Below are positions 31,445 to 56,404 of a DNA stretch of 64,000 nt, one piece after another. The position numbers and the translations under genes are program-made. Under the pieces are notes generated by a model, which did not search any database, had not been told where the DNA came from, and was given only the letters and a program-made list of their open reading frames with translations. This DNA is from Gemmobacter serpentinus (GTDB lineage: Bacteria > Pseudomonadota > Alphaproteobacteria > Rhodobacterales > Rhodobacteraceae), in contig NZ_WCHR01000020.1 in assembly GCF_008973825.1 (NCBI RefSeq), forward strand, positions 124,001 to 188,000, given 5' to 3'. Numbering within the stretch: position 1 is the first letter of the stretch; every line of letters starts with the position of its first letter.

Positions 31445-31457
31445 GTCAGGGTTTCCT

Positions 31458-32813: not shown

Positions 32814-32817
32814 CGGA

Positions 32818-39854: not shown

Positions 39855-39914
39855 TTGAATGCTCCGTGTTGTTCTGGTGCGGCCAGAAGTTCCGTGAAAG
39901 GCTTAGCCATCGTT

Positions 39915-40571
39915 ATGAAGCAAGAGACCGAGGCGACGATGATCCGGCGCAACCCGCTGGATCATCTTATGGAATTGATTGAAGCTGGTGAATTGCGTCC
40001 GGGCAGCCGCCTCACCGAGACTGAACTGGCCCAACGCCTCGGCATCAGCCGCACCCCCGTGCGTGAAGCGCTGCATCGCCTTCATGCCATGGGCCTGGCC
40101 GAACATGGTCCGCAGCGCGGGCTGATTATCGCCCATCTGAGCTACGACCAGCTGCGTCAGCTTTTTGCCGTGCGCGAAGGACTGGAGGGCATGGCGACCC
40201 GGCTTGCCGCAGAACATGCCTCAAGATCAGAGGTCAATCTGCTGCGCGATATGGTGATGGCGGACCGCGCATTGGAAGATCCGGTCAAACTGCTGGAGCG
40301 CAACAAAGTTCTGCACCGCCAGATCGCCCATGCCTCGCATAACAAGTTCATGATCGACGCGCTGAACAATCTGCGGGTGCATCTCAGCCTGCTGCCGGGC
40401 ACGACCTATATGGAAGCCGGCAGGCTGGAGGCAGCGCAGCGCGAGCATGAAGAGATCGTGGCGGCGATTGCCGAAGGCGATGGCGACCGTGCGGAGCGGG
40501 CGGCCCGCAAACACATTCTGGCGGGCTTCCAGATCCGCCTGCGGATGATGGCAGAAGCCGACAAGAGCTGA
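39915..40571 (+). CDS. GntR-family regulator with FCD domain
   Basis: A 218-residue standard-length FCD regulator. Winged helix: LRPGSRLTETELAQRLGISRTPVREALHRL. FCD metal/ligand residues are visible in NKVLHRQIAHASHN, REHEEIVAAI and ARKHI. Start choice is uncertain: ATG 39915 or ATG 39939 (five bases after GAGG); a TTG frame extends to 39855 but overlaps the operator. It probably controls the metC-like gene and the divergent aap operon through TGTATACA sites. Confidence 0.87.
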   Translation: MKQETEATMIRRNPLDHLMELIEAGELRPGSRLTETELAQRLGISRTPVREALHRLHAMGLAEHGPQRGLIIAHLSYDQLRQLFAVREGLEGMATRLAAEHASRSEVNLLRDMVMADRALEDPVKLLERNKVLHRQIAHASHNKFMIDALNNLRVHLSLLPGTTYMEAGRLEAAQREHEEIVAAIAEGDGDRAERAARKHILAGFQIRLRMMAEADKS

Positions 40572-40778: not shown

Positions 40779-42221
40779 TCATTCCAGACGGTTTTCCCCC
40801 ATCCGGGCGAAGGCTGCCGGATCGCGCGCCCTCAGCCGGGCAGCCATCAGCCAACCCGCCAGTGCCACCAGCGGCACCAGACTGGGCAGGATCACCCCGA
40901 GGGCCGCGCCCGCCGTGCCGGTCAGGTCACCGAAGTGCAGGAAGATATAAACGAACAGCGCCGCCATGATCAGCGCCGACAGGCCGGGCAGGACAAGCGT
41001 GGTCACGGGCGATCCATCGCCACGGCCCCGGAAGAAGACAATCACCGCGACCGAGGTGACCGTCATCATCCCCAGAACGCCCAGCGTGCCGATCTGCGCA
41101 ATCCAGGTGAACATGTTCAGCACCGGATCAAGCTTCAGCCCGGCAAAGATCGCCAGAACCAGCAGCGCGCCCGCTGTCTGCACCAGCGATCCGACATGCG
41201 GGCTTTGATGCACATCATGGGTGCGCCCAAAGGCGCCGGGCAGCAGCCCCTCGCGCCCGGCGACATAGGAATAGCGCGCGATGTAATTGTGAAAGGCCGA
41301 AAGGGCGGCAAACAGGCTGGTGACCAGCAACAGCCCCGCCACCATCGGCACCGGACCGCCGACATAGGTATCGGCCAGAATGAAGAACAACGCAGAAGGA
41401 TCGGGCAGCCCTGCCAGCATCGGCACAAGCTCGGCCGCACCGATGCCCACGATCATCAGCCAGGTGGTGAAGACATAGAAGACCCCAATCATCAGGACCG
41501 ACAGATAGGTCGCGCGCGGGATGGTGCGGGCCGGATCGCGGGCCTCTTCGGCATAGATCGTGGTCGCCTCGAACCCGATGAAAGAGCCAAGGCAGAACAG
41601 CACCGCCACCGTCAGCGAACCGGAATTGATCGCGGCAAAGTCGAAAAGATTGAAGCCAAGCCCCTGCGCACCGCCCTTGCCGATGATCGCCAGATCCACG
41701 ATCAGCACGATCAAATACTCGGCGATCACCAGAATGGTCAGCACCTTGGCCGAGAGATCAACCTGACGGTAGCCCAGCAAGCCCACCAGCAGGATCGCCA
41801 CCAGCGAATAGACCCACCATGGCGCGGTCAGCCCCATTTCGCCAAAGACCCCGGCCGAGATGCCACCCAGCAGGCCGATCAGCCCGAACTGCATGGCATT
41901 ATAGGCCAGCACCGCCACCATCGCGACCGCGCCCCCGGCCTGACCACCAAGGCCGCGGGCGGTATAGGCGTAAAAGGCACCCGCATTCTTCACATGCCGC
42001 GCCATCGCGACATAGCCTGCCGAAAAGGCCAGCATCAGCAACGTGACCCCGATGAAGGTGGCCGGGATCCCCGTGCCATTGCCCAGCAGAAAGGCGATGG
42101 GCATGGCCCCCGCTACCCCGGTCAGGGGCGCCGCCGCCGAGATCACCATGAAGGTGACTGCCATCAGCCCCAGTGAATTCTTGCGCAGCTGGTTCGCCCC
42201 AGCCCCCGCGATATCCGTCAT
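40779..42221 (-). CDS. APC-family amino-acid/amine permease
   Basis: A 480-residue APC-superfamily permease with about 12 predicted membrane helices. Its first helix region reads SLGLMAVTFMVISAAAPLTGVAG, and the conserved helix after it contains GNGTGIPATFI. Start ATG 42221 (MTDIAGAG) has GGAG eight bases upstream; the frame to 42284 lacks one. Last gene of the nicX-like operon, 69 bases after the flavin reductase. It presumably imports an amino acid or amine that feeds the GS-like ligase. Ion coupling and substrate are unknown. Confidence 0.9.
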   Translation of the reverse strand: MTDIAGAGANQLRKNSLGLMAVTFMVISAAAPLTGVAGAMPIAFLLGNGTGIPATFIGVTLLMLAFSAGYVAMARHVKNAGAFYAYTARGLGGQAGGAVAMVAVLAYNAMQFGLIGLLGGISAGVFGEMGLTAPWWVYSLVAILLVGLLGYRQVDLSAKVLTILVIAEYLIVLIVDLAIIGKGGAQGLGFNLFDFAAINSGSLTVAVLFCLGSFIGFEATTIYAEEARDPARTIPRATYLSVLMIGVFYVFTTWLMIVGIGAAELVPMLAGLPDPSALFFILADTYVGGPVPMVAGLLLVTSLFAALSAFHNYIARYSYVAGREGLLPGAFGRTHDVHQSPHVGSLVQTAGALLVLAIFAGLKLDPVLNMFTWIAQIGTLGVLGMMTVTSVAVIVFFRGRGDGSPVTTLVLPGLSALIMAALFVYIFLHFGDLTGTAGAALGVILPSLVPLVALAGWLMAARLRARDPAAFARMGENRLE

Positions 42222-42290
42222 GTTCCGTCTCCCTGTTCCGGGGCCCTGCGGTCTTGTCGCCGCCTGGGTCACCCAAGATGTCACGCGTGG

Positions 42291-42800
42291 TTAGTTTTCC
42301 TTTGGCAGATGCACCGCGCGGCGATAGGCGCGCTGGCCGTAAAGCAACGCCGCCGGATCTTCGGAAAGTGTGATCCCGACCACCCGCCCGACGATGATGT
42401 GATGGGTTTCCCACAGCAGGGCGGTGGCCAGACGGCATTCAAACACCGCTGTCGCCCCGGTGATCTGCGGCTGGCCCAGCGGACCGGGTGTCCAGCCCGC
42501 CCGGTCAAAGCGGTTGTCATGACCGTCGCCGCCGCGCCCGGCAAAAAGGTTCGCCATCGCCTCTTGCCCCTCATGCAGCAGGTTGGCGCAGAAGCTGCGG
42601 TTTTTCAGGATTGCGCCCGCGGCGGGCGAAAGGTGGTGGATGCAGGCCAGAAGCGAGGGTTGATCGCCATCCGCCGAAACCGAGGTCAGCGAGGAAATCG
42701 TGACCCCGAAACGCCCCGCAGGCCCATCGGTGGTCGCCACCGCGACAAAGGTTGCGGCACGGCTCATGCCTTCGAGGAAACGGGCGCGCAGATCCTCCAT
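42291..42800 (-). CDS. Flavin reductase (HpaC-like) of a two-component monooxygenase
   Basis: A 169-residue NAD(P)H:flavin oxidoreductase of the flavin-reductase-like domain family. Motifs: GRFGVTISSLTSVSADGDQPSLLACIHH and SFCANLLHEGQEAMAN, with the C-terminal WETHHIIVGRV. Such proteins deliver reduced flavin to a partner monooxygenase; here the candidate partner is the dehydrogenase-fold protein at 46112. Start ATG 42800 is five bases after the GS-like stop; the larger frame to 43100 lies inside that gene. Confidence 0.87.
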   Translation of the reverse strand: MEDLRARFLEGMSRAATFVAVATTDGPAGRFGVTISSLTSVSADGDQPSLLACIHHLSPAAGAILKNRSFCANLLHEGQEAMANLFAGRGGDGHDNRFDRAGWTPGPLGQPQITGATAVFECRLATALLWETHHIIVGRVVGITLSEDPAALLYGQRAYRRAVHLPKEN

Positions 42801-42805
42801 CCCCG

Positions 42806-44146
42806 TCAGCCCAGATCGAAATACCGCTCCAGCTCCACATCGGGAACCTTGCGGCAAAATTCGTGATACTGGCCTTCGCGAGTCGCGCTGAAGGCCTCGA
42901 CAAAGCGGGGGCCAAGCCAGTCCCTGGCGAAATCCGATCCGCGCAGCCGCGCGATCGCCTCGGGCATGGAGCGGGCAAAATCGCGGCCGGGCTCTTGCGC
43001 ATAGCCGGACCCGATCACCTCCGGGTCGGGCTCTACCTGTTCGATTACCCCGGCCACACCTGCAGCGATGGTCGCCGCAGCCGAGAGATAGGGATTGCAA
43101 TCCGCGCCCGGCAGACGGTTTTCCACCCGCAGACTGCCCGGATCGTGACCGACCAGCCGGAAACAGGTGGTCCGGTTCTCATAGCCCCAGGTCAGGCCCG
43201 GCGGCGCGAAAGTGCCCGGCGCAAACCGGCGGTAGCTGTTTACCGTCGGCTGGAACAGCAGCGTCATGTCCCCGATATACTTCTGCAAGCCTCCAAGGAA
43301 ATGGCGGAAGGTCTGGCTAACGCCGTTCTTTGCCCCCTCCTCCCAGAAGAGCGGTGCCCTGGCCTTGTCCAGCAGGCTGATATGCAGATGGATCGACTGG
43401 CTGTCGGCCTGTTCGCTCCAGCGCGGCATGAAGGTGACCGACTTGCCCTGCCGCAGCGCCAGCGCCCGCAGGAAATTCTTGAGCAGCACCAGCTGGTCGG
43501 CAGGCTCCAGCCCGGTGCCCGCACCGATACAGGCCTCCATGAACCCCGCACCGATTTCCTCATGCATCTTCGCAAGATCAATCTTCAACGGCTCGCAGAT
43601 CGCAGCCAGCGCCTCATACCATTCGGTCTGCACCACTTGATAAAGGATTAGATCGTGACTTGCGTGCTGGGTCGCGGGCTTAAGGTTGCGATAGCCCTTG
43701 GCGCGGGCGCTTTCGGGTGTCTCGTCAAACAGGGTATATTCCAGCTCCATCCCGTATTTCGGCACCAGACCCGCCGCCTCGGCGCGGGCCAGCACCGATT
43801 TGAGGATGGAGCGCGGGCAGATCTTCGCCGAGGCCCCGGTGAAATTCGACAGCACCAGCAGGTCATGGCCAGGTTTCGACCATGGCAGGCGGCGGATCGT
43901 CGCGGGGTCAAGCTCCAGCGGATCGTCGTGAAAATCGCCCTTGTCATCATTGACGCCAGGGATGGTCTGGAAGGCATCGGTCGGGTCCAGCGCCAGTTGC
44001 GCGGGGGACATGCCCATGCCGTTCCGGGCGATCCCCTTCAGACTGCTGGCAGAGACCATCTGCCCGCGCAAAAGCCCGTTGGTATCGGTCATTGCCACCG
44101 TGGCAAAACGGCTGGCGGGATCCGCCAGAAATTCGTCAAGCGTCAT
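42806..44146 (-). CDS. Glutamine synthetase-like ligase (gamma-glutamyl-amine ligase candidate)
   Basis: A 446-residue member of the glutamine synthetase superfamily, resembling GlnT/PuuA-type sequences. Core features: KYGMELEYTLFDE, HEEIGAGFMEACIGAGTGL, HLHISLL, FAPPGLTWGYENRTTCFRLVG and VENRLPGADCNPYLS. Members ligate glutamate to ammonia, polyamines, or other amines; such ligases open several amine-degradation routes (for example aniline and isopropylamine). The first ATG overlaps the TetR stop (ATGA). In this operon a role in activating an imported amine is more likely than ammonia assimilation, but this is inference. Confidence 0.88.
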   Translation of the reverse strand: MTLDEFLADPASRFATVAMTDTNGLLRGQMVSASSLKGIARNGMGMSPAQLALDPTDAFQTIPGVNDDKGDFHDDPLELDPATIRRLPWSKPGHDLLVLSNFTGASAKICPRSILKSVLARAEAAGLVPKYGMELEYTLFDETPESARAKGYRNLKPATQHASHDLILYQVVQTEWYEALAAICEPLKIDLAKMHEEIGAGFMEACIGAGTGLEPADQLVLLKNFLRALALRQGKSVTFMPRWSEQADSQSIHLHISLLDKARAPLFWEEGAKNGVSQTFRHFLGGLQKYIGDMTLLFQPTVNSYRRFAPGTFAPPGLTWGYENRTTCFRLVGHDPGSLRVENRLPGADCNPYLSAAATIAAGVAGVIEQVEPDPEVIGSGYAQEPGRDFARSMPEAIARLRGSDFARDWLGPRFVEAFSATREGQYHEFCRKVPDVELERYFDLG

Positions 44147-44829
44147 GCATCACCTGTTGAAGCGGGGGGCGGAAGCCTTGTCAGCTTCTCGAGTTGTGTC
44201 AGATCGTCGGCAGGCCGGGTGGAGTAGGCGCGCAGGAACACCCGCAACCCGTTATGGATGAACCGCGCCAGATCGGCGCGCGGCGGCACGAGGTCCGGCT
44301 TGTAAAGCGCATGGGTGCGCGGGGCGGAAAGGATCAGCCCCCAAAGGTCTTCGGCCGCCAGCTCCGCATCCTGAAACTCCAGCCTGCCCGCCGCGCGGCA
44401 ACTGTCGAGATAGGTCATGATCCCCTGCAACAGACGATCCGGCCCGGCCTCCTGATAATAACGGCCGATCTCGGGGAAGCGGCCGACCTCGCCGATGATC
44501 AGCCGGGCCAGTGCCAGCATATCGGGGCGCATCACCGTATCGGCGTAATCCCATGCGAAAAGGTAGAGATCCTGCACCATGCCCTCATCCGAGGGGTGCT
44601 GGAACACATCCAGCATCTCGTTGCGAAAGCCCCGCATCATCGCGGAGAACAGGGCCTCCTTGCTTTCGAAATACTGATAGAGCGTCGGCTTGGTGATCCC
44701 GGCCTCGGCGGCGATGGCATCCATCCCCGCGCCGGAATAGCCCGATTGCGCAAAGACCGTCATCGCCGCCTCAAGGATGCGATGCTCGCGTTCGATCCGG
44801 TTCTGTTCGCGGCGCGAGATCTGCGTCAT
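44143..44829 (-). CDS. TetR-family transcriptional regulator
   Basis: A 228-residue TetR regulator. N-terminal HTH: RILEAAMTVFAQSGYSGAGMDAIAAEAGITKPTLYQYFESKEALF. The C-terminal ligand-binding domain is all-helical. It is embedded inside the seven-gene operon (stop/start overlaps on both sides), which suggests feedback control of the operon, perhaps through the repeats in front of the nicX-like gene. Confidence 0.92.
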   Translation of the reverse strand: MTQISRREQNRIEREHRILEAAMTVFAQSGYSGAGMDAIAAEAGITKPTLYQYFESKEALFSAMMRGFRNEMLDVFQHPSDEGMVQDLYLFAWDYADTVMRPDMLALARLIIGEVGRFPEIGRYYQEAGPDRLLQGIMTYLDSCRAAGRLEFQDAELAAEDLWGLILSAPRTHALYKPDLVPPRADLARFIHNGLRVFLRAYSTRPADDLTQLEKLTRLPPPASTGDA

Positions 44830-46112
44830 GGCAGGCGCCGCAGGAAATCGGCCAGATGGCGGTTATAGGTCTCGGGGCGTTCCAGATTGCACAGGTGTCC
44901 GGCACCCGCGATTTCCTCGAACCGCACATCGGGGCGCGGCGACAGATCCCAGATCCGGCCCGCCACACTGCGAATTTCGGCAGGGGGGGCAAGGCGGTCA
45001 TGCGCGCCGGTCATCAGCAGCACCGGCATGGTCAGGCGCGCGAAATCGAACCGTTCCAGCGGGTTGGTAAAGCAGGTCAGCGCATCGCGATAGGTCGCGC
45101 TCGGGATCGCGGCCATGGAATCGAACAATTGCTGGCGCACCTCCGGGCTGGCATCCGGCCCGGCCAGAACCTTGACCACCGCCGGCGCGAAATCACGCGG
45201 GGTCTGGCCCGCATCCAACGGCACCTCGCGCGACAGGCGAAAGGCCTCACGCTCCTCCGGGCCCGCCTCGGACATGCCGGTGCAGCCGCCTGACAGGACC
45301 AGCCCGTCCAGAAGGTCGGGATGGCGCATCGCGAAAGATGTGGCGATCCAGCTTCCGTACGACAGACCGACCAGCACCAGCCGCCTGGCCCCGAGCACCT
45401 GCATGACACGCAGGATATCGTCGCAATAATCATCGACGGTGGATTGCTGCGGGCCAAAACCGCTGCCGCCATAGCCGCGCAGATCCAGCGCGGCGGCCTG
45501 CATATGCTGACCCGCAACAGGCACCTGACCCGCCCAGTTGCCGCGATTGCCACCGATACCATGCAGGAACAGGCAGAGCCGGTCGCCCTGCCCTGCAGTC
45601 GTCAGCGCAAGCCGTGGCAAGGCATCGATGCTGCGCTCTTCCAACTGCGGCAGCGATGCCACCTGAAGGGGTTCGGGACGCGCGATCGGCAGCAGATCGG
45701 GGCAGGCCAGCGCCGCGATCCCCACCTCGAACACCGCGCGGGTTCCCTCTCGGATCTGGTCGATCCGGGCAGCCCTTGCCGAAATCTCTGCATTCCAACT
45801 GATGGCGCTGCCGCCACCCTCAGCGGGGCTGACCGTCACCCTTGCATCATAATCCGTGACACCGGCGATCCCCTCGAGATGGGTGTAACCGAGCGAACGG
45901 TCGCTGTCGGAATACCATGTCAGCCGTTCGCGATAGATCGTATCCTCGCCCTGCACCGTGAAGGCGCGGATCAGCCCGCCCTGTTCATCGCGCTCAGCCG
46001 CAATTCCTGTCATCAGCGGATGCCAGAGGCCGCAGAACGCGCGCAGCACCGCCCAGACCGCATCCGGCGCGGCGGGGGAATGGCCCAGCACCTGAACACG
46101 GTCGCGCAGCAT
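44826..46112 (-). CDS. SRPBCC domain fused to an alpha/beta hydrolase
   Basis: A 428-residue protein in two parts. Residues ~1-140 resemble the SRPBCC/polyketide-cyclase ligand-binding fold (VQVLGHSPAAPDAVWAVLRAF, then TYHL-like GYTHLEGIAGVTDYDARVTV). Residues ~166-428 are an alpha/beta hydrolase with oxyanion FLHGIGGNRG, nucleophile S251 in VGLSYGSW, acid D372 in GAHDRL and H406 in GAGHLCNLE. The fusion is unusual. In the known 2,5-dihydroxypyridine pathway an alpha/beta hydrolase (NicD) follows NicX, so this may hydrolyse the ring-cleavage product. Start ATG overlaps the previous stop by one base. Confidence 0.85.
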   Translation of the reverse strand: MLRDRVQVLGHSPAAPDAVWAVLRAFCGLWHPLMTGIAAERDEQGGLIRAFTVQGEDTIYRERLTWYSDSDRSLGYTHLEGIAGVTDYDARVTVSPAEGGGSAISWNAEISARAARIDQIREGTRAVFEVGIAALACPDLLPIARPEPLQVASLPQLEERSIDALPRLALTTAGQGDRLCLFLHGIGGNRGNWAGQVPVAGQHMQAAALDLRGYGGSGFGPQQSTVDDYCDDILRVMQVLGARRLVLVGLSYGSWIATSFAMRHPDLLDGLVLSGGCTGMSEAGPEEREAFRLSREVPLDAGQTPRDFAPAVVKVLAGPDASPEVRQQLFDSMAAIPSATYRDALTCFTNPLERFDFARLTMPVLLMTGAHDRLAPPAEIRSVAGRIWDLSPRPDVRFEEIAGAGHLCNLERPETYNRHLADFLRRLP

Positions 46113-47419
46113 CAGCGCACCCCCTTGATCGTGCCACCCTCACCCCGCCAGAGCGAGGTGCGCGCGCCGCCTTCATCGCCGGGGGCAGTGTCCAGCTCGT
46201 CAAGATCATAGAGGGCAAGGACGCCGATATAGTCCTCCATGATTTCTGAAGTATAGGGCAGCATCAGCGCCCCGCAGCGGCTGTCGCGATACATCCGCTC
46301 CAGCGGCAGGCTTTTCAGCATCGACTGCCCGCCACAGGTGCGGATCGCCAGCGCGGCGATCTCCTGCACGCCCTCCATCACGTTATACTGTGCGGCATAC
46401 ATGCGCAGCACCTCGCCCTTGGTCGGAAAGCCCTTGGCCTCGCCAAAGGCCTGCCACCAGAGGGCGCGCATATTGGCAAGACGGGCATACATCTTGCTGA
46501 CCGCCACCCGCTTGGTGGCAAACATCCGACGGTCAATCGGCGGCTGGCCGGGGATACGCCCCTGCAGATAGGCCACCGTAAAGTCAAACGCCCCCTGCGC
46601 CACGCCCATATAGGTGGGCGACAGGGTGGCCATCATATGCGGCCAGTTCGCCAGCGTCTTGCCGAAGATCCCCTTGGGCATCAGCAGATCGTCGCGGGTG
46701 ACAAAGACATCCTTCAGGATCAGATCGCGCGAGTTGGTGCCGCGCATCCCCAGCGGATCCCATTCGCCCTTGACCGTCAGGCCCGGATTGTCCTTGTGGA
46801 CCACGAAGATCATCGTGTCTTCATGCCGGGGCTCGATACCCTCGAAGGCTTCGGTGCAAACGATGGTGTAGTAATCGCAATACCCTGCAAGGCTCGCGAA
46901 TTTCTTGAACCCGTTGATCTTCCAGCCGCCCTCGACCGCGCGGCACTGGGTCTGGTTGGGCTTCGATGTCCAGTTTTGCCCGCCCTCGGAAATTGGCTGC
47001 GAATAGATCGCGCGCTCGGCAATCGCGCGGCGGAACTGCCTTTCGCGCAAGGGGGCAAATTCGGCGCGTTCGGTATCGGTCAGGTTCGGCATCTCGAACA
47101 TGAACCGCGACCAGGCCATGGACGAATTGTGCATGTTGAAGGTCAGCGCGGTGGCACCGCAGAACTTGCCGATCTCGGCCCCGACCATGGCATATTCGCC
47201 CATGGAAAAGCCCATGCCACCATATTCCACCGGGATGCACAGGGTCAGAAAGCCCTCATCCGCCAGATCCTTGTAATTTTCGACCGGGAACGAGGCATCG
47301 TCGTCCACACCCTTGGCCCGTTCGGCAAAGCGCGGCCCCAGATCGTTCACCCGGCGCAGGATCTGCTGCACCTCGGGGCGGATGCGGGACAGGTCGTAAT
47401 AGTCGGCAATATCACTCAT
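46112..47419 (-). CDS. Acyl-CoA-dehydrogenase-fold protein, probable flavin monooxygenase
   Basis: A 435-residue protein of the acyl-CoA dehydrogenase superfamily. N-domain FPVENYKDLADEGFLTLCIP and middle domain WDPLGMRGTNSRDLIL are typical. The position that carries the catalytic glutamate in MCAD-type enzymes (xYEGTxEI) reads LPYTSEI, with P388 where E is expected, next to the ERMYRDSR helix. This favours a flavin-dependent monooxygenase of the same fold over a true dehydrogenase, particularly with a flavin reductase in the operon. Some dehydrogenases place the base elsewhere, so this is inference. It lies 25 bases after the nicX-like gene. Confidence 0.83.
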   Translation of the reverse strand: MSDIADYYDLSRIRPEVQQILRRVNDLGPRFAERAKGVDDDASFPVENYKDLADEGFLTLCIPVEYGGMGFSMGEYAMVGAEIGKFCGATALTFNMHNSSMAWSRFMFEMPNLTDTERAEFAPLRERQFRRAIAERAIYSQPISEGGQNWTSKPNQTQCRAVEGGWKINGFKKFASLAGYCDYYTIVCTEAFEGIEPRHEDTMIFVVHKDNPGLTVKGEWDPLGMRGTNSRDLILKDVFVTRDDLLMPKGIFGKTLANWPHMMATLSPTYMGVAQGAFDFTVAYLQGRIPGQPPIDRRMFATKRVAVSKMYARLANMRALWWQAFGEAKGFPTKGEVLRMYAAQYNVMEGVQEIAALAIRTCGGQSMLKSLPLERMYRDSRCGALMLPYTSEIMEDYIGVLALYDLDELDTAPGDEGGARTSLWRGEGGTIKGVR

Positions 47420-47444
47420 CTCGGTCTCTCTTCGCGGAAAGATT

Positions 47445-48497
47445 TCAGAGGGCCAGATCGCCCTGCAACACGCCGTCCTTCACGACGACACGGCCATCCA
47501 GCGCGATGGTGCAATTGCGCATCGGCAGGTCGAAATGGCCAAGGGTGTAGCGCCCGGCATATTGGTTGGCGCCGGTGGACCACAGGAACGACCCCGCCAG
47601 AGCCCGGAATTCGACCGCCTGCATGTCGCGCTTGTCATACATCGCCGCGCTGACCCATTTCGCACCAGGGTTCATCCCCCAGCCGACATGGCTCATCCCG
47701 TAGGCGTTGCGGTCGTTCCACGCCTCCATATATTCGCGGAAATGCAGCGCATCGATGCCGTCGCCCTTGATGGCGGTGACAAAGTCATCCTCGACCGTGA
47801 AGTCGATCTGGCTGGTCAGATAGGTCTTGAACGTCAGGTTCATGTCACCGACGCCCATGACGATCCGGCCATTCACCGCGTTCTTGCCGGGGAAGGCCAG
47901 ACACAGGCCCCCCGGCCAATGTGCGACCGCACCCGGTGTGGTGCCAAAACCTGCCGTGCCCCCGCAGGGCGCGCCGCGCAGATCGACGGTCAGATCGGTG
48001 CCCAAGCCCGAGGTGACGCGCATCTGGGATGCCTCGCGCAGCATCTGGATGCCAGCCTGCACCTTCGGGCCAAGCTCGGCCCGGGGTTCGGTCCGTTCCA
48101 GAATCTCGGGATGTTCATTGGTGATGACCAGAAGCCTTGCCTTGCCGGCCTCTTCGATCTCGGGCCATTCCGGGGCGTGGATCATGCCTTCGACCGTGCA
48201 ATCAACGATCACCTCGACCCGCTTCAACGCCTCGATCACCGCGCGGTTCTGCTGCACCGCCCATGAGGTTCCGGTGGATTTCACTGGCACCGGGGCGCTT
48301 TGCGGCGGAGTCGGCATCTGGATGACAAAGAAGGACGCGCCCAGATCATGCGCCGCAAGTTCGGCCAGATGCACCAGCACTGGCCGCGACTGGGTCTCGG
48401 ACAGGATTGCGATCTCCGTGCCCTTGCCGATGCCATTCAGGGCAAAAACCCGCCTGAAGCTGGAAAGCCATGTGCCCTCCACCCGTTCCTGGAGCAT
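47445..48497 (-). CDS. 2,5-dihydroxypyridine 5,6-dioxygenase-like (NicX family) protein
   Basis: A 350-residue protein, the same length as NicX-type dioxygenases, which belong to a family related to M29 aminopeptidases. H270 in SHVGWGMNP and the H321-x-D323 pair in TLGHFDLP fall where a 2-His-1-carboxylate Fe(II) centre is expected. NicX cleaves the 5,6 bond of 2,5-dihydroxypyridine to N-formylmaleamate. GGAGGGGCGG precedes ATG. It is the first gene of the operon, after a promoter-like TTGACA/TAATTC pair. Other members are annotated as aminopeptidases or other ring dioxygenases, so the exact substrate is unproved. No maleamate amidase or maleate isomerase gene is seen in the window. Confidence 0.78.
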   Translation of the reverse strand: MLQERVEGTWLSSFRRVFALNGIGKGTEIAILSETQSRPVLVHLAELAAHDLGASFFVIQMPTPPQSAPVPVKSTGTSWAVQQNRAVIEALKRVEVIVDCTVEGMIHAPEWPEIEEAGKARLLVITNEHPEILERTEPRAELGPKVQAGIQMLREASQMRVTSGLGTDLTVDLRGAPCGGTAGFGTTPGAVAHWPGGLCLAFPGKNAVNGRIVMGVGDMNLTFKTYLTSQIDFTVEDDFVTAIKGDGIDALHFREYMEAWNDRNAYGMSHVGWGMNPGAKWVSAAMYDKRDMQAVEFRALAGSFLWSTGANQYAGRYTLGHFDLPMRNCTIALDGRVVVKDGVLQGDLAL

Positions 48498-49225: not shown

Positions 49226-50122
49226 CTATTCAGCCAGCTTGCTGGTGGCGATCTGCCGATCGAGATCTTCATATCCGAAGTAATTGATCGTCTCGTAAAG
49301 CTCTGCCCGGGTCAGCATCTCGGGCAGCATTGCCGAGGTCGCATCCGTTTCGGCCAAAGACGCATATAGGCCCTCCTGCGCCTTTGCCGCGCAGCGCAGG
49401 GCGCTGACAGGCCAGATCACCATGGCGTAGCCCATCGCTTCGAACTCCGCTGCCGTGAAGACAGGCGTGCGGCCAAATTCGGTCATATTGGCCAAAAGCG
49501 GCACCGCCGGAAAGGCCGCAGCAAAGGCGCGGAACATGTCGGCATCCGTCAGGGCCTCGGGGAAAATTGCATCCGCCCCCGCCTCCAGATACAGCCGCGC
49601 CCGGGCAATCGCACCCTCCAGACCTTCACTGGCGGCAGCATCGGTGCGGGCGACAATCACCATATCGCGCCGCGCGCGCGCAGCAGAGGCCACCTTCGCC
49701 GCCATTTCTTGCGGGGTGGCCAGGCGTTTATCCGACAGATGGCCACATTTCTTGGGCAGGATCTGGTCTTCCAGATGCACGGCTGCGGCGCCTGCGGCTT
49801 CGAACCGGCGCACCATGTGCATCACATTCAGCGCCTCGCCATAGCCGGTATCCCCATCGACCAGCACCGGCAGGCCCGAGGCACCCGCCACCTGCCGGAT
49901 GAAAAAGGCCACATCATCGACGGTGATGATGCCCAGATCCGGCAACCCCATCGAGGCGCTCATGGCGGCACCCGACAGATAGAGCGCCTCGAACCCGGCG
50001 CGCCGCGCTTGCAATGCCGCAAGCCCGTTATGGGCACCCGGCATCCGCAACACACCGCCCTGCGCCAGCCGGGCGCGCAATGCCCGGCCTGCATTCTCAA
50101 GGGGTGGGGTGATATAGGTCAT
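49226..50122 (-). CDS. Isocitrate lyase/PEP mutase-family lyase (methylisocitrate-lyase-like)
   Basis: A 298-residue TIM-barrel C-C lyase of the isocitrate lyase/PEP mutase superfamily. The catalytic cysteine is in LPKKCGHLSDKRL; VDGDTGYGEALNVMHMV provides metal ligands and IVARTDA a further active-site block. Relatives include 2-methylisocitrate lyase (PrpB), dimethylmalate lyase and oxaloacetate decarboxylase. The start ATG 50122 overlaps the TctA stop (ATGA); the frame to 50365 lies within tctA. Translational coupling to a tricarboxylate transporter indicates it cleaves the imported acid. Confidence 0.87.
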   Translation of the reverse strand: MTYITPPLENAGRALRARLAQGGVLRMPGAHNGLAALQARRAGFEALYLSGAAMSASMGLPDLGIITVDDVAFFIRQVAGASGLPVLVDGDTGYGEALNVMHMVRRFEAAGAAAVHLEDQILPKKCGHLSDKRLATPQEMAAKVASAARARRDMVIVARTDAAASEGLEGAIARARLYLEAGADAIFPEALTDADMFRAFAAAFPAVPLLANMTEFGRTPVFTAAEFEAMGYAMVIWPVSALRCAAKAQEGLYASLAETDATSAMLPEMLTRAELYETINYFGYEDLDRQIATSKLAE

Positions 50123-51657
50123 TCCCGATCCTCCCGATATTGCTGCAAGTGCAGCGCCTTCAACCTGCGCCGGGCCAGCAGTTGCGGGATCACCAGCATG
50201 GCGATGGCCGCCCCCCACAGCACAATGGCGATCCAACTGGACCACAGGATCTGCACATCGCCCGCCGAGAGCGACAAGGCGCGGCGCAGGTTCTGTTCCA
50301 GGATCTTGCCCAGCACAAAGCCCAGCACCAACGGGGCCATCGGCACATGCATCCGCCGCAACCAATAGGCGATGACCCCGATCACCGTCATCAGCACCAG
50401 ATCGAAACTTGCCGATTTGCCGGAATAGACACCGACCGCGCTGACCACCACGATGAACGGGACCAGCACCCAGGCCGGCACCGACAGCATCCGCGCAAAG
50501 ACACCGACCAGCGGGATGTTCATCGCCAGCAGCATCACATTGCCGATGAACAGCGAGGCGATCAGGCCCCAGACCAGTTCGGGCTGCGCGGTGAACAGCA
50601 CCGGCCCGGGGGTGATGTTGTAAAGCGTCAGCACGCCCAGCATGATCGCGGTGGTGCCGGAACTGGGGATGCCAAGCGTCAGCATCGGGATGAAGTTGGA
50701 ATTCGAGGCCGAATTGTTGGCAGCCTCCACGCTCGCCAATCCGCGCAGGTCGCCATTACCAAAGCGGTTGCCTTTGGGATCGGTGCGCTCCACCACGCGC
50801 TTTTCGGTGGAATAGGCCAATGCCGAGCCCACCGTGCCCCCCGCCCCCGGCAGCAGACCGATGAAGAACCCGATGACCGAGCCCCGCAGGGTGGCCGCCG
50901 TGGTCAGTTTCACCTCGGCCCAGTTGAACAGGCTGCGGCCCATGCGTTCGACTTTGGTGGGGATGCCCTCCTTGTGGCTTTCGTAAAGCAGCATCAGTTC
51001 GGAAATCGCGAAAAGCCCGATGACGATGGTGGCGAACTGAATCCCGTCGATCAGGTTCGGCATGTCGAAGGTATAACGGTATACGCCGGAATTGGGGTCG
51101 ATCCCAACGACGGACAGCGCCAGACCGATGCCCACAGCCAGCAGGGCCTTGACCGGCTCATCCGCAAGAAGGCCCGTCAGGCAGGCAAAGGCAAAGACCA
51201 TCAGGCCCACATATTCCACCGGGCCAAAGGCCAGCGCCCATTTCGACAGGATCGGCGCGGCCACGACGATCCCCACCGTGGCCAGCATGGACCCTACAAA
51301 GGAAGTCCAGGCCGATAGCGACAGCGCGATCCCGGCCTTGCCCTGCCGCGACAGGGGGTAGCCCTCCAGCGCGGTCATCACCGCCGAGGCCTCGCCTGGA
51401 ACATTGATCAGGATCGCGCTGATCCGCCCGCCATATTCGGACCCGATATAGATCGCCGCCATCAGGATCATCGATGATTCAGGCGGCAGGCCAAGGGCAA
51501 AGACCACCGGCACCAGCATGGCTACCGCATTCACCGGGCCAAGGCCGGGCAACACCCCCACCATGGTGCCGACCACCGCACCAAGGGCCGCCAGAGCCAG
51601 ATTGGTCGGGGTCATCGCGACGGCAAAGCCCGTCATCAAGAAGGCCAAAGTATCCAT
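50119..51657 (-). CDS. tctA: Tripartite tricarboxylate transporter, large membrane subunit
   Basis: A 512-residue TctA-family protein with about 11-12 membrane helices. Conserved elements: LGAVVGTMVGVLPGLGPVNAVAML near 25 and GLLPGAGGTVGSALAYSTEKR, with GNGDLRGLASVEAANNS following. It forms the transport channel with TctB. Overlaps tctB by a base (TAATG). Confidence 0.94.
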   Translation of the reverse strand: MDTLAFLMTGFAVAMTPTNLALAALGAVVGTMVGVLPGLGPVNAVAMLVPVVFALGLPPESSMILMAAIYIGSEYGGRISAILINVPGEASAVMTALEGYPLSRQGKAGIALSLSAWTSFVGSMLATVGIVVAAPILSKWALAFGPVEYVGLMVFAFACLTGLLADEPVKALLAVGIGLALSVVGIDPNSGVYRYTFDMPNLIDGIQFATIVIGLFAISELMLLYESHKEGIPTKVERMGRSLFNWAEVKLTTAATLRGSVIGFFIGLLPGAGGTVGSALAYSTEKRVVERTDPKGNRFGNGDLRGLASVEAANNSASNSNFIPMLTLGIPSSGTTAIMLGVLTLYNITPGPVLFTAQPELVWGLIASLFIGNVMLLAMNIPLVGVFARMLSVPAWVLVPFIVVVSAVGVYSGKSASFDLVLMTVIGVIAYWLRRMHVPMAPLVLGFVLGKILEQNLRRALSLSAGDVQILWSSWIAIVLWGAAIAMLVIPQLLARRRLKALHLQQYREDRE

Positions 51658-52097
51658 TACAGCAGATCCCCCAGCAGCCCGGTGGGCAACACCACATCCA
51701 GCGCGTGGTCGAACAGCAGAAAGGCACCGACCGACAGCACCGCCGCGCTGATCGTGGCCTGTGCCCAGGTCGCGCCAAAGATCCGTGCCACCACCAGCGA
51801 CATCGCTGCCGTCGAAATCACGAACCCCAGCGTCGTAAAGACCATGGCATAGACAAGCAGCGTCGCCGCAATGGCCAGGACGCCAAGATTGACGCCCGGC
51901 GCATTGCCTTCGACCGCGCCACCGCCCCGGATCAGCAGCAGGGTCCCGCAGATCCCGATCAAGACGGCGGTGATCATCGGAAAGGCGCGCGGCCCCACGG
52001 GTTCATAGGCGAAGGGCGCCACAAGACCCCAACCGAATGCGGCCAGGGCAAGGGCCATGAGCAATGCCAGGCCCCCAAGCGTTCTGTTATTGCTCAT
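51657..52097 (-). CDS. tctB: Tripartite tricarboxylate transporter, small membrane subunit
   Basis: A 146-residue TctB-like membrane protein with about four helices (for example GGLALLMALALAAFGWGLVAPF at the N-terminus). GPRAFPMITAVLIG is a family-typical early motif. It lies between tctC (9 bases) and tctA. Confidence 0.88.
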   Translation of the reverse strand: MSNNRTLGGLALLMALALAAFGWGLVAPFAYEPVGPRAFPMITAVLIGICGTLLLIRGGGAVEGNAPGVNLGVLAIAATLLVYAMVFTTLGFVISTAAMSLVVARIFGATWAQATISAAVLSVGAFLLFDHALDVVLPTGLLGDLL

Positions 52098-52106
52098 GGC
52101 TTGTCC

Positions 52107-53096
52107 TCAGTTCGCGACCAGACCGAAACTGTCGGCAAGTTCGCGATAGGTGGCCACCCGGGCATCGACAAAGCCGTCAAGCTCGGCACCCACCATTGGC
52201 AGCGGCAGCAGGTTGCGCTGTTCCAGCAGGGCGGCATAACCCGGTGCGGCCATCGCGGTGGCGAAAGCGTCGCTCCACCACTGGTAATCGGCATCGGACA
52301 CATCGGGCCCGACATAGAAGCCCCGGACGATGGGCCATTCGATGTCAAAGCCCTGTTCCTTTGCCGTCGGGATTTCGGCCAGCTTTCCGGCCAAACGATC
52401 GGCAGAATAGATCGCCAGCAGTTTCAGCGGTGCGCCACCGTCAATCGCGGCCTGGCTGTCGCCGACATCATTCATGCAGACCTGCACATGCCCGCCCTGC
52501 AGCGCCGTCGCGCAATCGCCGCCGCCCTCGAAGGCGACAAAGCGCATCGCCTTGTGATCGACCCCGGCGGCGCGGGCCGTCAGTGCCGCCTTCATCCAGT
52601 CCTGGCTGCCGATGGTGCCACCTGCCCCCAGAATGACCGAAGCGGGATCAGCCTTGATTGCCGCCATCAGATCGGCCAGCGAGCCAAACGGGCTATCGGC
52701 AGGAACAACCACCGCGCCGTAATCTGTGCCGATCGACGCAACCCACCGCACGTCATCTGCCGTATAGGCCCCGAACTTGCCCTGCGAGAGATTCAGCAGC
52801 GAGCCGGCGGAGAAGGCCACAATGGTGCCCGGCTCGGCCCGACGCTGGCCCACGACGGTGTTGAATGCGACGGCGCCGATCCCACCCGGCATGTAGGACA
52901 CGCGCAGCGGATCCGCCAAAAGGCCGGCATCCTTCAGCGCCGCCTGTGCCAGCTTGCAGGTGATGTCAAACCCACCGCCGGGCTGCGCCGGGGCAATGCA
53001 TTCGGGGCTCGCCGGTTCAGCCGCCGCCGCCAATGTGCCCGCCGCAACCGCAATACCGACAAGCGCGGCGCTGCGACCGATGCTCAGAATGTTCAT
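52107..53096 (-). CDS. tctC: Tripartite tricarboxylate transporter substrate-binding protein
   Basis: A 329-residue periplasmic TctC-like protein. Signal peptide SAALVGIAVAAGTLAAAAEP; the mature part starts with the family-typical CIAPAQPGGGFDITCKLAQ. PGGIGAVAFNTVVGQ and GGTIGSQDWMKAAL match the ligand loop. It binds a di- or tricarboxylate for TctAB. GGGAGG precedes the ATG. Confidence 0.93.
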   Translation of the reverse strand: MNILSIGRSAALVGIAVAAGTLAAAAEPASPECIAPAQPGGGFDITCKLAQAALKDAGLLADPLRVSYMPGGIGAVAFNTVVGQRRAEPGTIVAFSAGSLLNLSQGKFGAYTADDVRWVASIGTDYGAVVVPADSPFGSLADLMAAIKADPASVILGAGGTIGSQDWMKAALTARAAGVDHKAMRFVAFEGGGDCATALQGGHVQVCMNDVGDSQAAIDGGAPLKLLAIYSADRLAGKLAEIPTAKEQGFDIEWPIVRGFYVGPDVSDADYQWWSDAFATAMAAPGYAALLEQRNLLPLPMVGAELDGFVDARVATYRELADSFGLVAN

Positions 53097-53172
53097 GGTT
53101 CCCTCCCAAGGAATATGTCTGGGCCTCCCTGCCCGTTCGACACCTTAGAAAATCCAACCTTTCATCCAGCTT

Positions 53173-54609
53173 TCAGTCTGACAGGTTTTTCGCAGAGGGG
53201 GACGCGGAAGACAGACGGATCGTCGCCGCAAGCCCGCCAGTCGGGCGGTTGCGTAGATCCAGGGTGCCGCCCTGCCCGCGGATGATGGACAGCACGATGG
53301 AAAGGCCCAGTCCGGTGCTGTCGTCACCGCTGCGCGCCAGGCGGAACCGTTCCCCCGCGATGCGCAGCGCCTCGGGGTCCATCCCGGGCCCCTCATCGGT
53401 GACCTCGATCACGATCTGCTCCTCCGCGCGTCTTGCCGCCAGCAGCACCCGCCCGCCCATGGGCGATGCAGCCAGCGCATTGGCGGCAAGGTTGCTGACC
53501 GCCTCGAACAACAGTGGCTCGGTCGCGGCCGTCATAAGCGGCATCTCGGACACATCCACCTCCAGCATGATGCGCCGCTTGCGGGCCGGCGGAAGATGCA
53601 GCAGCGCGACTTCGCGCAGAAGATCTGCCGCATCGACCCCCACGCCGTCGGCGGCCAGCATCGCCCCGTTGCGCGCCCGCGCCAACGCTAGAAGCTGCGC
53701 GGTCATGCGTGACGTCCGGTCGATCACCGGCAGCATCGCCGCGACGGCATCCCGTTGCGCATCGCGATCCGTCGCCCGAAGGGCATAATCGGCCTGTGTT
53801 CGCAGCACCGCAATCGGTGTTTTCAGCTGATGCGAGGCATCGTCGATGAAGCGGCGTTGCAGTTCAGCCTCGGCACGGCTGCGCTGCATCAGCCGGTTCA
53901 TTGCCCCGACGAGGGGCTGCACCTCGCGCGGCAGCTGGCTGCCGTCCAACTGGCGCAGATCATCGGGTTCGCGACGGTCAAGCCGTTCTTTCAACGCGAA
54001 AAGCGGCCGCAAGGCCATATGGACCCCAAGCGCCAGCAAGCCCCCCGCCACCAGCACCGCCAGCACATCGCGCCAGATGGCGCGACCGATCACATTGCGC
54101 AGGAATGCCTCACGCGAGCCGGTGGTTTCGGCCACCTCGATGATGATGTTCTGCGCCTTGGAGGCGCCATAAAGCGGCGCGTCAAGCGGGCGCATATAGG
54201 CCCCGATCCGCACTGTGCGGCCAAAATATTCTGCATCGTAGAAGATCATACGCCCATCGGGCAAAGGCGGCGGGGGCGGCAGCAGCGCATCGCCGATCTG
54301 CACCAGACGATCATCGGTCGAGACCCGGAAAAACACCTCGCCCCCGGCGGTCGCCTGAAAGGTTTCAAAAAGCGGATAAGGCAGCTCCACACCGACCCCG
54401 CCGCTTTCGGTCGAGATGTTCAGGTCGATGGCGCGGATCGCCCCCGAGAGCGAGCGGTCATAGGCGCTGTCGGCAAGATCGCGCAGGATCGATGCCGTCA
54501 GCCAAAGGCCGACCCCCATCAGGAAGGCCAATGTCGGGATGATCCAAAGCCCCAATGTCTGCCAAAGGGCACGGGCCGAGCGCGGGCGCTTGGCGGCACG
54601 CTCAGCCAT
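53173..54609 (-). CDS. tctE: Sensor histidine kinase TctE
   Basis: A 478-residue sensor kinase. Two membrane helices (about 17-45 and 185-205) flank a periplasmic sensor region. H-box DASHQLKTPIAVLRTQADYAL, N-box NLAANALAAS, G-boxes DEGPGMDP and GLGLSIVLSI are present. It overlaps the response-regulator gene by 8 bases. It presumably senses a carboxylate and controls the adjacent tctCBA genes. Confidence 0.93.
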   Translation of the reverse strand: MAERAAKRPRSARALWQTLGLWIIPTLAFLMGVGLWLTASILRDLADSAYDRSLSGAIRAIDLNISTESGGVGVELPYPLFETFQATAGGEVFFRVSTDDRLVQIGDALLPPPPPLPDGRMIFYDAEYFGRTVRIGAYMRPLDAPLYGASKAQNIIIEVAETTGSREAFLRNVIGRAIWRDVLAVLVAGGLLALGVHMALRPLFALKERLDRREPDDLRQLDGSQLPREVQPLVGAMNRLMQRSRAEAELQRRFIDDASHQLKTPIAVLRTQADYALRATDRDAQRDAVAAMLPVIDRTSRMTAQLLALARARNGAMLAADGVGVDAADLLREVALLHLPPARKRRIMLEVDVSEMPLMTAATEPLLFEAVSNLAANALAASPMGGRVLLAARRAEEQIVIEVTDEGPGMDPEALRIAGERFRLARSGDDSTGLGLSIVLSIIRGQGGTLDLRNRPTGGLAATIRLSSASPSAKNLSD

Positions 54610-55273
54610 CGCAGGCTTCCAGCAGATAGCCCAGGCCGCGCAGCGTCACGATCTGCACCTTGTCTTCGCCCAGCTTGCGGCGCAGACGATGGATGATCAC
54701 CTCGATCGCCTCAAGTTGCAGGTCACTGTCATGTCCCACCAGCCGATCAAGGATCTGCTGCTTTGACAGCGGATGCCCGGCGCGCCGGATCAGCGTGGCA
54801 AGCACTGCATGTTCGCGCGGCGACAGGGCCAGGGTTTCGGAAGCCAGGGTAAAACGCTGTGCAGCCTGGTCATAGACCAGTCCACCACAGGTATAGACCC
54901 CGCGCGCCCGGCCATGACTGCGCCGCACCAATGCGGCCAACCGCGCCTCGAGCTCCTCAACCGCGAAGGGCTTGGCCAGAAAGTCATCGGCCCCGGCATT
55001 GAGCAAAGCAACCCGACCGACCAGACTGTCGCGGGCCGTGACAATCAAGGCTGGAATGCCGTCTTCGGATTTGCGCAGCCGCGTCAGCAATGCCGCCCCA
55101 TCCAGCGACGGCAAGCCAAGGTCAATCACTACCGCGTCGAAATCATCTCCGGCAAGGCGGCGCTCGGCCATGAGCCCGTCATCTTCCCATTCGACCACGC
55201 AGCCGCGCTGTGCCAGAGACTGGCTCAGCCAGTTGGCCAGATCGACATCGTCTTCCACCAAAAGAATGCGCAT
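54602..55273 (-). CDS. tctD: Response regulator TctD
   Basis: A 223-residue OmpR/PhoB-type response regulator. Receiver domain starts at MRILLVEDDVDLANWL with phospho-acceptor in VIDLGLPSLDG and K in FLAKPF. The winged-helix effector domain contains LSPREHAVLATLIRR and IEVIIHRLRRKLG. I start at ATG 55273; ATG 55336 upstream gives an unrelated extension. First gene of the tctDECBA-lyase unit. Confidence 0.93.
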   Translation of the reverse strand: MRILLVEDDVDLANWLSQSLAQRGCVVEWEDDGLMAERRLAGDDFDAVVIDLGLPSLDGAALLTRLRKSEDGIPALIVTARDSLVGRVALLNAGADDFLAKPFAVEELEARLAALVRRSHGRARGVYTCGGLVYDQAAQRFTLASETLALSPREHAVLATLIRRAGHPLSKQQILDRLVGHDSDLQLEAIEVIIHRLRRKLGEDKVQIVTLRGLGYLLEACDG

Positions 55274-55411
55274 GGGCGACTTGTCCTCAGCGGCCATCTG
55301 ACCAGCCATTTGGCACGACCCGCCCCAAAGAACCAAGCTGCGCCTGCAACGGGAACGCGGTCATGCGGCCATTTTACCAGATCGCCCGCATCCATCGACG
55401 ACAGATGGCCG

Positions 55412-56281
55412 TCAATCTGTCACGCGGGTTTCCAGCAGCGCAACCGCCTTTGCGGACAGCTCTGCCACCGCAGCATTGCGGGTCGACCAGTTCGCTGGTG
55501 TGTCCGAAAGGTAGATCGCCACGAAGAACGGGGCGCGGCCGGGGGGCGTCAGCATTGCTACGATATTGCGGGTGTGATCGCGCCCCCCGCCGGAGCGGTC
55601 GGCAACCTGCCAGCCCGGCGGGACCGAGGGGCGCAGCAAGGTGCCGGTGACGCCGCCGATCGACATCCATTCGATCAGTTGCGCGCGCGAGGCGGGAGCA
55701 AGCGCGTCCCCTGTCAGCAATACCTGCCAGCTGGCCACCATGGCGGCGGGGCTGGTGGTGTCCCGCGGATCGCCGGGCAAGAACAGGTTCATCTCGGGCT
55801 CTTTGCGGTCCAGCCGGGTAACGCTGTCGCCGATCCCGCGCAGGAAGGCGGTCACCGCCTGCGTGCCGCCCATGCGGTCGATCAGCAGGTTGGCAGCGCC
55901 ATTGTCGCTTTGGTCGAGCGTGGCGAGACACAGACGGGCGATCGACAGGCTGCCGCCAAGATAGCGTGACGTGACAGGTGAATTGCGCGGAACCTGCGCC
56001 CCGATCCGCACGCTTTCTTCGAGGCTGATTTCGCCGCGATCAACGCCCTGCAGGATGCCGCCGCAGAGGACGGATTTGAACGTGCTGGCCATCAGGAACC
56101 GCTCGTCCTGCCGATGCCCCCAGCTCCAGCCGGTGGCGGTATCAAGGATCTGGATGCCGATCCTCGCCTCCAGATCGGTCTCCAGCCGGGTAATTGTGGC
56201 ACCGAGATCTGCCTCAGGCGTCTGCGCGTGTAGCGGTGCGGCGAGCAGCAGAAGGATGGCGGCGATAAGACGGAAAAACAT
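55412..56281 (-). CDS. Class A beta-lactamase, RSG variant
   Basis: A 289-residue periplasmic class A serine beta-lactamase. Signal peptide MFFRLIAAILLLLAAPLHA. Catalytic motifs: S66-T-F-K69, S125-D126-N127, E161 in RKEPEMN. The third motif is R229-S230-G231 where most enzymes have KTG or KSG; RTG/RSG occurs in the carbenicillinase-type subgroup. Start ATG 56281; the TTG at 56308 would put extra residues before the signal. It diverts no obvious neighbours; probably chromosomal and penicillin-hydrolysing, which is inference. Confidence 0.9.
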   Translation of the reverse strand: MFFRLIAAILLLLAAPLHAQTPEADLGATITRLETDLEARIGIQILDTATGWSWGHRQDERFLMASTFKSVLCGGILQGVDRGEISLEESVRIGAQVPRNSPVTSRYLGGSLSIARLCLATLDQSDNGAANLLIDRMGGTQAVTAFLRGIGDSVTRLDRKEPEMNLFLPGDPRDTTSPAAMVASWQVLLTGDALAPASRAQLIEWMSIGGVTGTLLRPSVPPGWQVADRSGGGRDHTRNIVAMLTPPGRAPFFVAIYLSDTPANWSTRNAAVAELSAKAVALLETRVTD

Positions 56282-56404
56282 GCGGTGGTTCGGTGATGTC
56301 TGCAACAAGATGGCGCAGGCTTAGCACAGGCCGCAAGTCATGTCCGCAATGCCGAACCCTAAGTTGGGTGCCGCACGGGCCGATGTCCTCAACGGATCCG
56401 CACT

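Follow-up and report, generated by a model that had tools for sequence, protein, structure and literature searches.

NicX of Pseudomonas putida KT2440 (PDB 7cn3) cuts 2,5-dihydroxypyridine (DHP) between C5 and C6; the excerpt of PMC7910607 describes it as defining a subtype within its class of ring-cleaving iron dioxygenases and reports no substrate besides DHP. Two annotated nic-type records (L165 and L167) hold a monooxygenase, an Asp/Glu racemase, an alpha/beta hydrolase, NicX and an amidohydrolase together, with NicE and NicF assigned by annotation. Known routes lead from indole or quinaldine to anthranilate and on into a CoA pathway, according to the excerpts of PMC6221969 and PMC3534580, the former of which places a 2-aminobenzoyl-CoA lower pathway in indole degradation by Cupriavidus and the latter of which covers the quinaldine route of Arthrobacter sp. 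Rue61a. Here, we analysed a window of 64,000 nucleotides from Gemmobacter serpentinus (the whole stretch, G000:C15:124001-188000, in a 4.26 Mb genome; coordinates below are window positions), which carries a seven-gene operon encoding a NicX-like dioxygenase, an acyl-CoA-dehydrogenase (ACAD)-fold protein, a hydrolase, a regulator, a glutamine-synthetase (GS)-like ligase, a flavin reductase and a permease. Our reading, held tentatively and at somewhat less than even confidence, is that it is a single catabolic operon for a nitrogen-containing aromatic or heteroaromatic compound, which would be hydroxylated, cleaved by the NicX-type enzyme and hydrolysed, the product feeding anthranilate-type degradation.

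As originally predicted, the seven genes are tightly linked on one strand. All are encoded on the minus strand, where neighbours either overlap or are separated by no more than 69 bp. The NicX-like non-heme Fe(II) dioxygenase (350 aa; 47445-48497), assigned by phmmer, AlphaFold/Foldseek, a tree and a residue table, is followed after a gap of 25 bp by the ACAD-fold protein (435 aa; 46112-47419; Pfam Acyl-CoA_dh domains), a predicted reduced-flavin-dependent monooxygenase. The next gene overlaps by 1 bp and encodes an SRPBCC domain fused to an alpha/beta hydrolase (428 aa; 44826-46112; Pfam Polyketide_cyc2 and Abhydrolase_1). Overlaps of 4 bp each join it to a TetR/AefR-like regulator (228 aa; 44143-44829; TetR_N and TetR_C_7) and the regulator to the GS-like protein (446 aa; 42806-44146; Gln-synt_C, E=4.8e-80), a predicted gamma-glutamyl-amide ligase. 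After 5 bp comes a short-chain flavin reductase of the HpaC/TftC type (169 aa; 42291-42800; Flavin_Reduct and PDB matches), and after another 69 bp an APC-family permease (480 aa; 40779-42221; AA_permease_2). The range of 42221-48497 given earlier covers the first six genes and takes in only the start codon of the permease gene, at 42221; this seventh gene extends to 40779.

The NicX-like protein has a sole PDB sequence match at E<=0.001, which is NicX 7cn3 (phmmer, E=4.5e-55). Its AlphaFold model (predicted local distance difference test score 89.4, built with 23 sequences) found the same structure as the top match in Foldseek (template modelling score 0.91, 31-32% identity in the structural alignment), and the next class, the M29 aminopeptidases, scored 0.60 at most. 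We compared 21 window-type with nine canonical or remote sequences, the roles of the NicX residues being taken from the excerpt of PMC7910607. The predicted Fe ligands H270, S307, H321 and D323, together with R298, are kept in all 21 window-type sequences and have equivalents in all nine others; their counterparts in NicX are H265, S302, H318, D320 and R293. An equivalent of His105 occurs in 21/21 window-type and 2/9 canonical or remote sequences, and one of His189 in 20/21 and 9/9. Glu177, which in NicX contacts the DHP oxygen and lies beside the DHP nitrogen (PMC7910607, excerpt), is found in none of the 21 window-type sequences, where T, V, I, G, A or S stands instead, and the other group has E in seven and Q in two of the nine. 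Glu308 is likewise kept in 0/21 as against 8/9, and an inserted E103-G104 is present in 21/21 and in none of the nine (one has GG). In the tree, which is midpoint-rooted and has a long branch, L166, meeting the window group, the 21 and the nine sequences are split by a branch with 100/99 support. Judged from sequence, the window protein stands outside the canonical NicX clade with a substrate pocket that appears changed; the enzyme probably belongs to the NicX chemistry class and acts on a different substrate. In public entries such as NZ_CP015007.1 and NZ_CP083351.1, window-type proteins go by the name peptidase M29. A true M29 peptidase was considered and rejected, there being no Pfam M29 match in this genome and only a remote fold likeness to PepS and AmpT.

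In order to assess how far the gene set is conserved, we used loci selected on NicX similarity alone. The sample was the best 80 of at least 576 relatives, all named loci, the nearest of which belong to Rhodobacteraceae; the 62 with at least 8 kb downstream of NicX were counted and the other 18 excluded. Gene presence was scored by tblastn, and ordered counts demand the same strand and order within 9 kb. At 75% NicX identity or more (43 loci), the ACAD, hydrolase and TetR genes follow in order in all 43, GS in 39, the flavin reductase in 36 and APC in 30; the first six genes are found together in 36 loci and all seven in 29, which is the outcome of the co-occurrence check proposed originally. 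Counted anywhere in the same loci, the flavin reductase rises to 37, APC to 31 and the full set to 30. At 62-75% identity (11 loci, ordered) ACAD is present in 9, hydrolase in 10, TetR in 9, GS in 5, flavin reductase in 4 and APC in 0. The eight loci below 62%, counted anywhere in the locus, hold ACAD in 2, hydrolase in 3, flavin reductase in 1 and a different CoA ligase in 7, with no TetR, GS or APC. Among 295 genomes of the family, one per genus, a NicX-like match at E<=1e-20 was found in 37. Identity to the window protein reaches 69% or more in 18 of them, all of which have NicX, ACAD and hydrolase together; TetR was detected in 17 of the 18 and the GS of the operon in 12.

Many bacteria of soil and water carry the gene set. 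Its order is kept in Rhodobacteraceae, Rhizobiales and metagenome-assembled genomes (MAGs) assigned to Gammaproteobacteria, with varying flanks, and also on plasmids recorded for Aminobacter aminovorans and Ensifer adhaerens (in the former, the reductase is annotated as a LysR-type protein). The linkage exceeds chance. The wider core consists of NicX and hydrolase, often with ACAD, and GS, flavin reductase and APC are replaceable, being gained or lost. The single-pathway reading had been made to depend on neighbourhoods elsewhere keeping GS, NicX and flavin reductase, and it holds among close relatives but fails among distant ones. Several relatives without APC have tripartite tricarboxylate transporter (TTT; TctC/TctA) or TRAP (DctM) transporter genes near the operon. 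In a Pusillimonas MAG locus (L142:9902-11551) an FAD aromatic hydroxylase stands after NicX and hydrolase, and no ACAD gene was found there. Close to the NicX-type operons of L047/L118, L049/L130, L073 and L096 there is a second GS-like gene with a cytochrome P450, and often a class I glutamine amidotransferase too. Literature searches on the gene combination and on indole or quinoline routes, covering titles and abstract starts of open-licence PMC papers, returned no paper recognised as describing it.

The close operon is linked at the genome level to an aerobic 2-aminobenzoyl-CoA-type pathway. There are 54 loci with NicX at 75% or more (named and plasmid), 40 of them with enough flank on both sides, and a CoA ligase (family c11) lies beyond the operon in eight of these 40, on the same strand in seven. 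The best PDB match of the c11 copy from L105 is the anthranilate-CoA ligase 4wv3 (292.9 bits), followed by benzoate-CoA ligase (269.5). An orthologue of the ligase (77%) is encoded in the window's genome at G000:C12:21282-22889; its cluster also contains a short-chain dehydrogenase/reductase, MarR, an enoyl-CoA hydratase, an ACAD, a cupin, a small unassigned protein, RidA and a 761-residue bifunctional monooxygenase/ene-reductase. The last passes the model NF006101 (1248.7 bits over a cut-off of 1078) and consists of a VioD-like and an old yellow enzyme half, which we take to be also the make-up of 2-aminobenzoyl-CoA monooxygenase/reductase. The cut-off of NF006101 is exceeded in 101/295 genera and in none of 14 control genomes. 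The model was passed in 10/10 genera with NicX at 77% or more, compared with 91/285 others (p=1.6e-5), and in 13/18 with NicX at 69% or more, compared with 88/277 (p=0.0012); genera with canonical or remote NicX types (6/12) are no different from background. Another set of 121 relatives, which overlaps the first in part, gave 9/10 for a NicX match at E<=1e-100 and 25/111 for the rest (p=3.7e-5), and in other families of the class the counts were 3/3 and 6/45 (p=0.005; the total of 48 genomes is inferred).

The partner enzymes can be given putative roles to different degrees. Acyl-CoA dehydrogenases make up most PDB matches of the ACAD-fold protein, which also include nitrososynthases and a DszC-type enzyme; the best matches are 5gj7/5z8t, for neither of which a literature search gave a paper. 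The IYEG stretch of the acyl-CoA dehydrogenase in this genome's CoA cluster is not kept, in a region where the alignment is gapped. Because dehydrogenase models outscore oxygenase models, we only infer, mainly from the partner reductase, that it is a reduced-flavin-dependent oxygenase. The flavin reductase, whose top PDB matches are 3cb0 (4-hydroxyphenylacetate 3-monooxygenase) and 3k86 (chlorophenol-4-monooxygenase component 1), is its likely partner. In ten loci (L031, L084-L091 and L122) the flavin reductase lies inside a frame of more than 330 residues; Pfam, checked on L087 only, finds a LysR-type effector domain after the reductase, while the L031 copy carries the annotation LysR substrate-binding protein. 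These long frames recall the ligand-gated reductase of p-hydroxyphenylacetate hydroxylase, and those with a LysR-type effector domain are possibly ligand-gated reductases too.

In the hydrolase domain, a GLSYG motif (S251), D372 and H406 form a candidate triad, and the best NCBIfam model is PcaD, below its cut-off. Similarity to hydrolases in the NicD position is weak (24-29% local identity), and the gene is placed where NicD sits in nic clusters. Among 82 loci with both genes, hydrolase and TetR share one uninterrupted frame in 17, or in 12 distinct ones once five duplicate contig copies are set aside; duplicates among the other 65 were kept in the count. By their sequence, these SRPBCC-hydrolase-TetR frames are predicted enzyme-regulator fusions (L043/L116, L044/L124, L045, L047/L118, L048/L127, L049/L130, L050, L117, L121, L123, L125 and L126).

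Read against the catalytic and ammonium-site roles of GS residues, the GS-like protein retains conserved carboxylate and Arg positions found in the GlnA of this genome, in an alignment that included five other paralogues, and lacks the DGSS stretch and the loop Glu of GlnA, as those five do. All four listed NCBIfam GS models fall below their cut-offs, e.g., GGputSyn with 168 bits (cut-off 650) and gln_synth_III with 169 (469.6). A DSQSxH motif is present in 6/6 operon GS and in none of seven other GS-family members, six of which have G-S-x-x-H instead. The protein is predicted to be a gamma-glutamyl-amide ligase.

We infer the reactions, their order and the substrate as follows. The APC permease would serve uptake in this organism, and the ACAD-fold protein would hydroxylate the ring with reduced flavin supplied by the flavin reductase. 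The NicX-type enzyme would then cleave an N-CH=C(OH) bond with Fe(II) and O2 to give an N-formyl or N-acyl amide, which the alpha/beta-hydrolase domain may hydrolyse, as NicD does after NicX. The GS-like ligase may N-gamma-glutamylate an amine, at a step that cannot be placed, and TetR would control the operon. In this genome and in most close relatives the product would most likely be a benzoate with an ortho-amino (or ortho-hydroxy) group, feeding the aerobic 2-aminobenzoyl-CoA-type pathway whose genes lie outside the operon. From the pathway outlined in the original prediction, one conserved catabolic unit of ACAD-fold protein with flavin reductase, NicX-type enzyme, hydrolase, GS-like ligase and APC stands; its substrate, the action of GS as the first step and the import of the substrate by APC are conjectural. 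If the reading is true, a widespread separate NicX clade with a changed pocket and fixed partners would widen the chemistry of ring-cleaving iron dioxygenases, and the anthranilate-type link yields a short list of candidate substrates.

The N-CH=C(OH) unit of DHP is also present in 3-hydroxyindole and 3-hydroxy-4-quinolone, and we hypothesise that cleavage and deformylation of these would give anthranilate or a close relative. A fuller scheme can be drawn, in which a NicX-family enzyme has moved off pyridine and opens the N-ring of a benzo-fused compound (such as 3-hydroxyindole or a 3-hydroxyquinolone), yielding first N-formylanthranilate and from it anthranilate, while an amine bears a gamma-glutamyl tag and an upstream gentisate module serves as the anthranilate-to-gentisate branch; in all its parts it is unlikely. 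This module is seen beside relatives, e.g., L093:6127-8178 and L068, as a gentisate 1,2-dioxygenase, a fumarylacetoacetate hydrolase (FAH), sometimes a nitrilase-like gene, a second flavin reductase and a divergent GntR. Where 6 kb or more of upstream sequence is present (42 named close loci), the dioxygenase was counted in 18, the FAH-like gene in 17, the second flavin reductase in 18, GntR in 18 and the nitrilase-like gene in 11. The excerpt of a 2018 review describes the anthranilate-to-gentisate branch as genetically unassigned (PMC6221969), and the module offers candidate genes for that route.

Several observations weigh against a single operon that feeds anthranilate-type degradation. 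GS, flavin reductase and APC are absent from most distant neighbourhoods. The ACAD-fold protein is nearer to FadE16-type (107 bits) and acryloyl-CoA reductase (103) models than to HsaA (70), with all NCBIfam scores far below cut-off, and the hydrolase is nearer to PcaD and esterases than to NicD-position hydrolases. The co-occurrence p values for NF006101, all of which ignore shared ancestry and genome size, are 1.0 for the 69-72% NicX type alone (3/8 vs 98/287), 0.69 for the 41-54% type (3/7) and 0.18 within the window's genus (3/3 vs 3/8). In G104, the only genome followed past the ligase, the CoA cluster is away from the operon, with the NF006101 gene about 310 kb off. Moreover, NF006101 is named bifunctional salicylyl-CoA 5-hydroxylase/oxidoreductase, so that neither this link nor the cluster in the window's genome, where such an enzyme and an aryl-CoA ligase stand together, can tell anthranilate from salicylate. 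Of the 40 fully flanked close loci, 16 also have a gentisate 1,2-dioxygenase-like cupin on the same strand upstream, and one of these 16 has the c11 ligase as well; mutual exclusion of ligase and gentisate module was tried and is not significant (p=0.11). The last two points, with the 555 bits of the tested dioxygenase copy to 3bu7, would suit an identical operon whose product is salicylate- or gentisate-like. We consider such a product quite unlikely, since the ligase is closest to anthranilate-CoA ligase, RidA in this genome's cluster would suit an enamine, and no gentisate-dioxygenase match was found in this genome in a search run without a positive control.

A monocyclic substituted pyridine, such as a hydroxypyridine carboxylate or an aminopyridine, is a somewhat unlikely but more serious alternative: 5,6-cleavage and deformylation would yield an acyclic product and never anthranilate, and the anthranilate link would reflect versatile genomes. 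NicX being both the sole PDB sequence match and the top fold match speaks for it, as do the genes for TTT and TRAP transporters and for further CoA ligases that adjoin related loci and the logic of monooxygenase, NicX and hydrolase shared with canonical clusters. It is at odds with the loss of Glu177 in every window-type sequence, with the anthranilate-type ligase beyond the operon in 8/40 close loci and the CoA pathway marker in 10/10 genera, and with the lack of NicE or NicF among the seven genes. The absence of maleamate amidase and maleate isomerase genes from the window had been pointed out originally, and it stands for these seven genes, the rest of the genome not having been searched; canonical nic clusters carry both. 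The canonical 2,5-dihydroxypyridine/maleamate (nic) pathway itself is hardly credible here: the iron ligands and the H105 and H189 equivalents are kept, but the nicotinate/DHP route is disfavoured by the pocket residues (Glu177 and Glu308), the separate clade and the missing partners. Homarine or another N-methylpyridinium compound, whose cleavage and deformylation would free an N-methyl amino acid or methylamine with the GS-like protein as a methylamine ligase, is attractive by its chemistry and by the glutamate-synthase-like triplets near NicX genes in L046, L108, L115, L125 and L131; by our own reasoning N-methylglutamate fits as a 5,6-cleavage product, and Mgd is reported in homarine catabolism (PMC13390433, excerpt). 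Ruegeria pomeroyi draws homarine down (PMC12817926, excerpt), yet a search at E<=1e-10 gave no NicX-like match in strain DSS-3 (G397, so identified by a megaplasmid gene matched 100% at its own coordinates) or in four more genomes of that genus, while the same query matched 37/295 genomes. The GS-like protein scores 104 bits to the methylamine ligase 9qur vs 192 to its best PDB match, and none of five glutamate-synthase matches in this genome is a clear MgsC (mgd was not searched), the latter result also leading us to reject an N-methylglutamate pathway here; homarine is thus weakened to a very improbable substrate. Finally, the replaceability of GS, flavin reductase and APC in distant loci might suggest neighbours without a common pathway, held by drift or co-regulation. 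The order kept across Rhodobacteraceae, Rhizobiales and Gammaproteobacteria-assigned MAGs despite varying flanks, and the hydrolase-TetR fusions, make that exceedingly improbable.

Outside the operon, a GntR-type gene (39855-40571, plus strand) lies downstream of APC and is convergent with it. On the 5' side of the NicX-like gene, 728 bp without an assigned gene separate it from a phosphoenolpyruvate mutase/isocitrate lyase-family gene and a TTT on the same strand; this stretch (49226-55336, minus) comprises the former gene, TctA, TctB, TctC and a two-component sensor-regulator pair. The window's transporter has no close match among those tested beside relatives (TctA 32%), and its TctC had no match to the TctC genes tested there. 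A beta-lactamase-family protein is encoded at 55412-56308 (minus), and three tandem MmgE/PrpD-family paralogues at 30083-34197 (minus).

Among described systems, PuuA, IpuC and TdnQ/AtdA1 are gamma-glutamyl amine ligases. With these and with GMAS, the GS-like protein shares a GS fold in which the DGSS stretch and the loop Glu seen in GlnA are missing; it differs in scoring far under the curated cut-offs and in carrying DSQSxH. In the quinaldine-to-anthranilate pathway of Arthrobacter sp. Rue61a the ring is cut by 1H-3-hydroxy-4-oxoquinaldine 2,4-dioxygenase, which is not known to be NicX-like. The iif/ind indole clusters share with the proposed pathway a two-component oxygenase with flavin reductase and an anthranilate product, and differ in that the ring is opened by the cofactor-independent oxygenase IifA, with no mention of a NicX-like or GS-like gene in the excerpt (PMC6221969). 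NicX and the nic cluster share with the operon the fold, the Fe ligands, the His105/His189 equivalents and a linked monooxygenase and alpha/beta hydrolase. The operon's protein differs from NicX by its separate clade, the loss of Glu177 and Glu308, the inserted Glu103-Gly104 and an identity of 31-32%, and the operon differs from the nic cluster in having no NicE/NicF, a putative ACAD-type instead of a NicC-type hydroxylase, and an extra GS-like gene.

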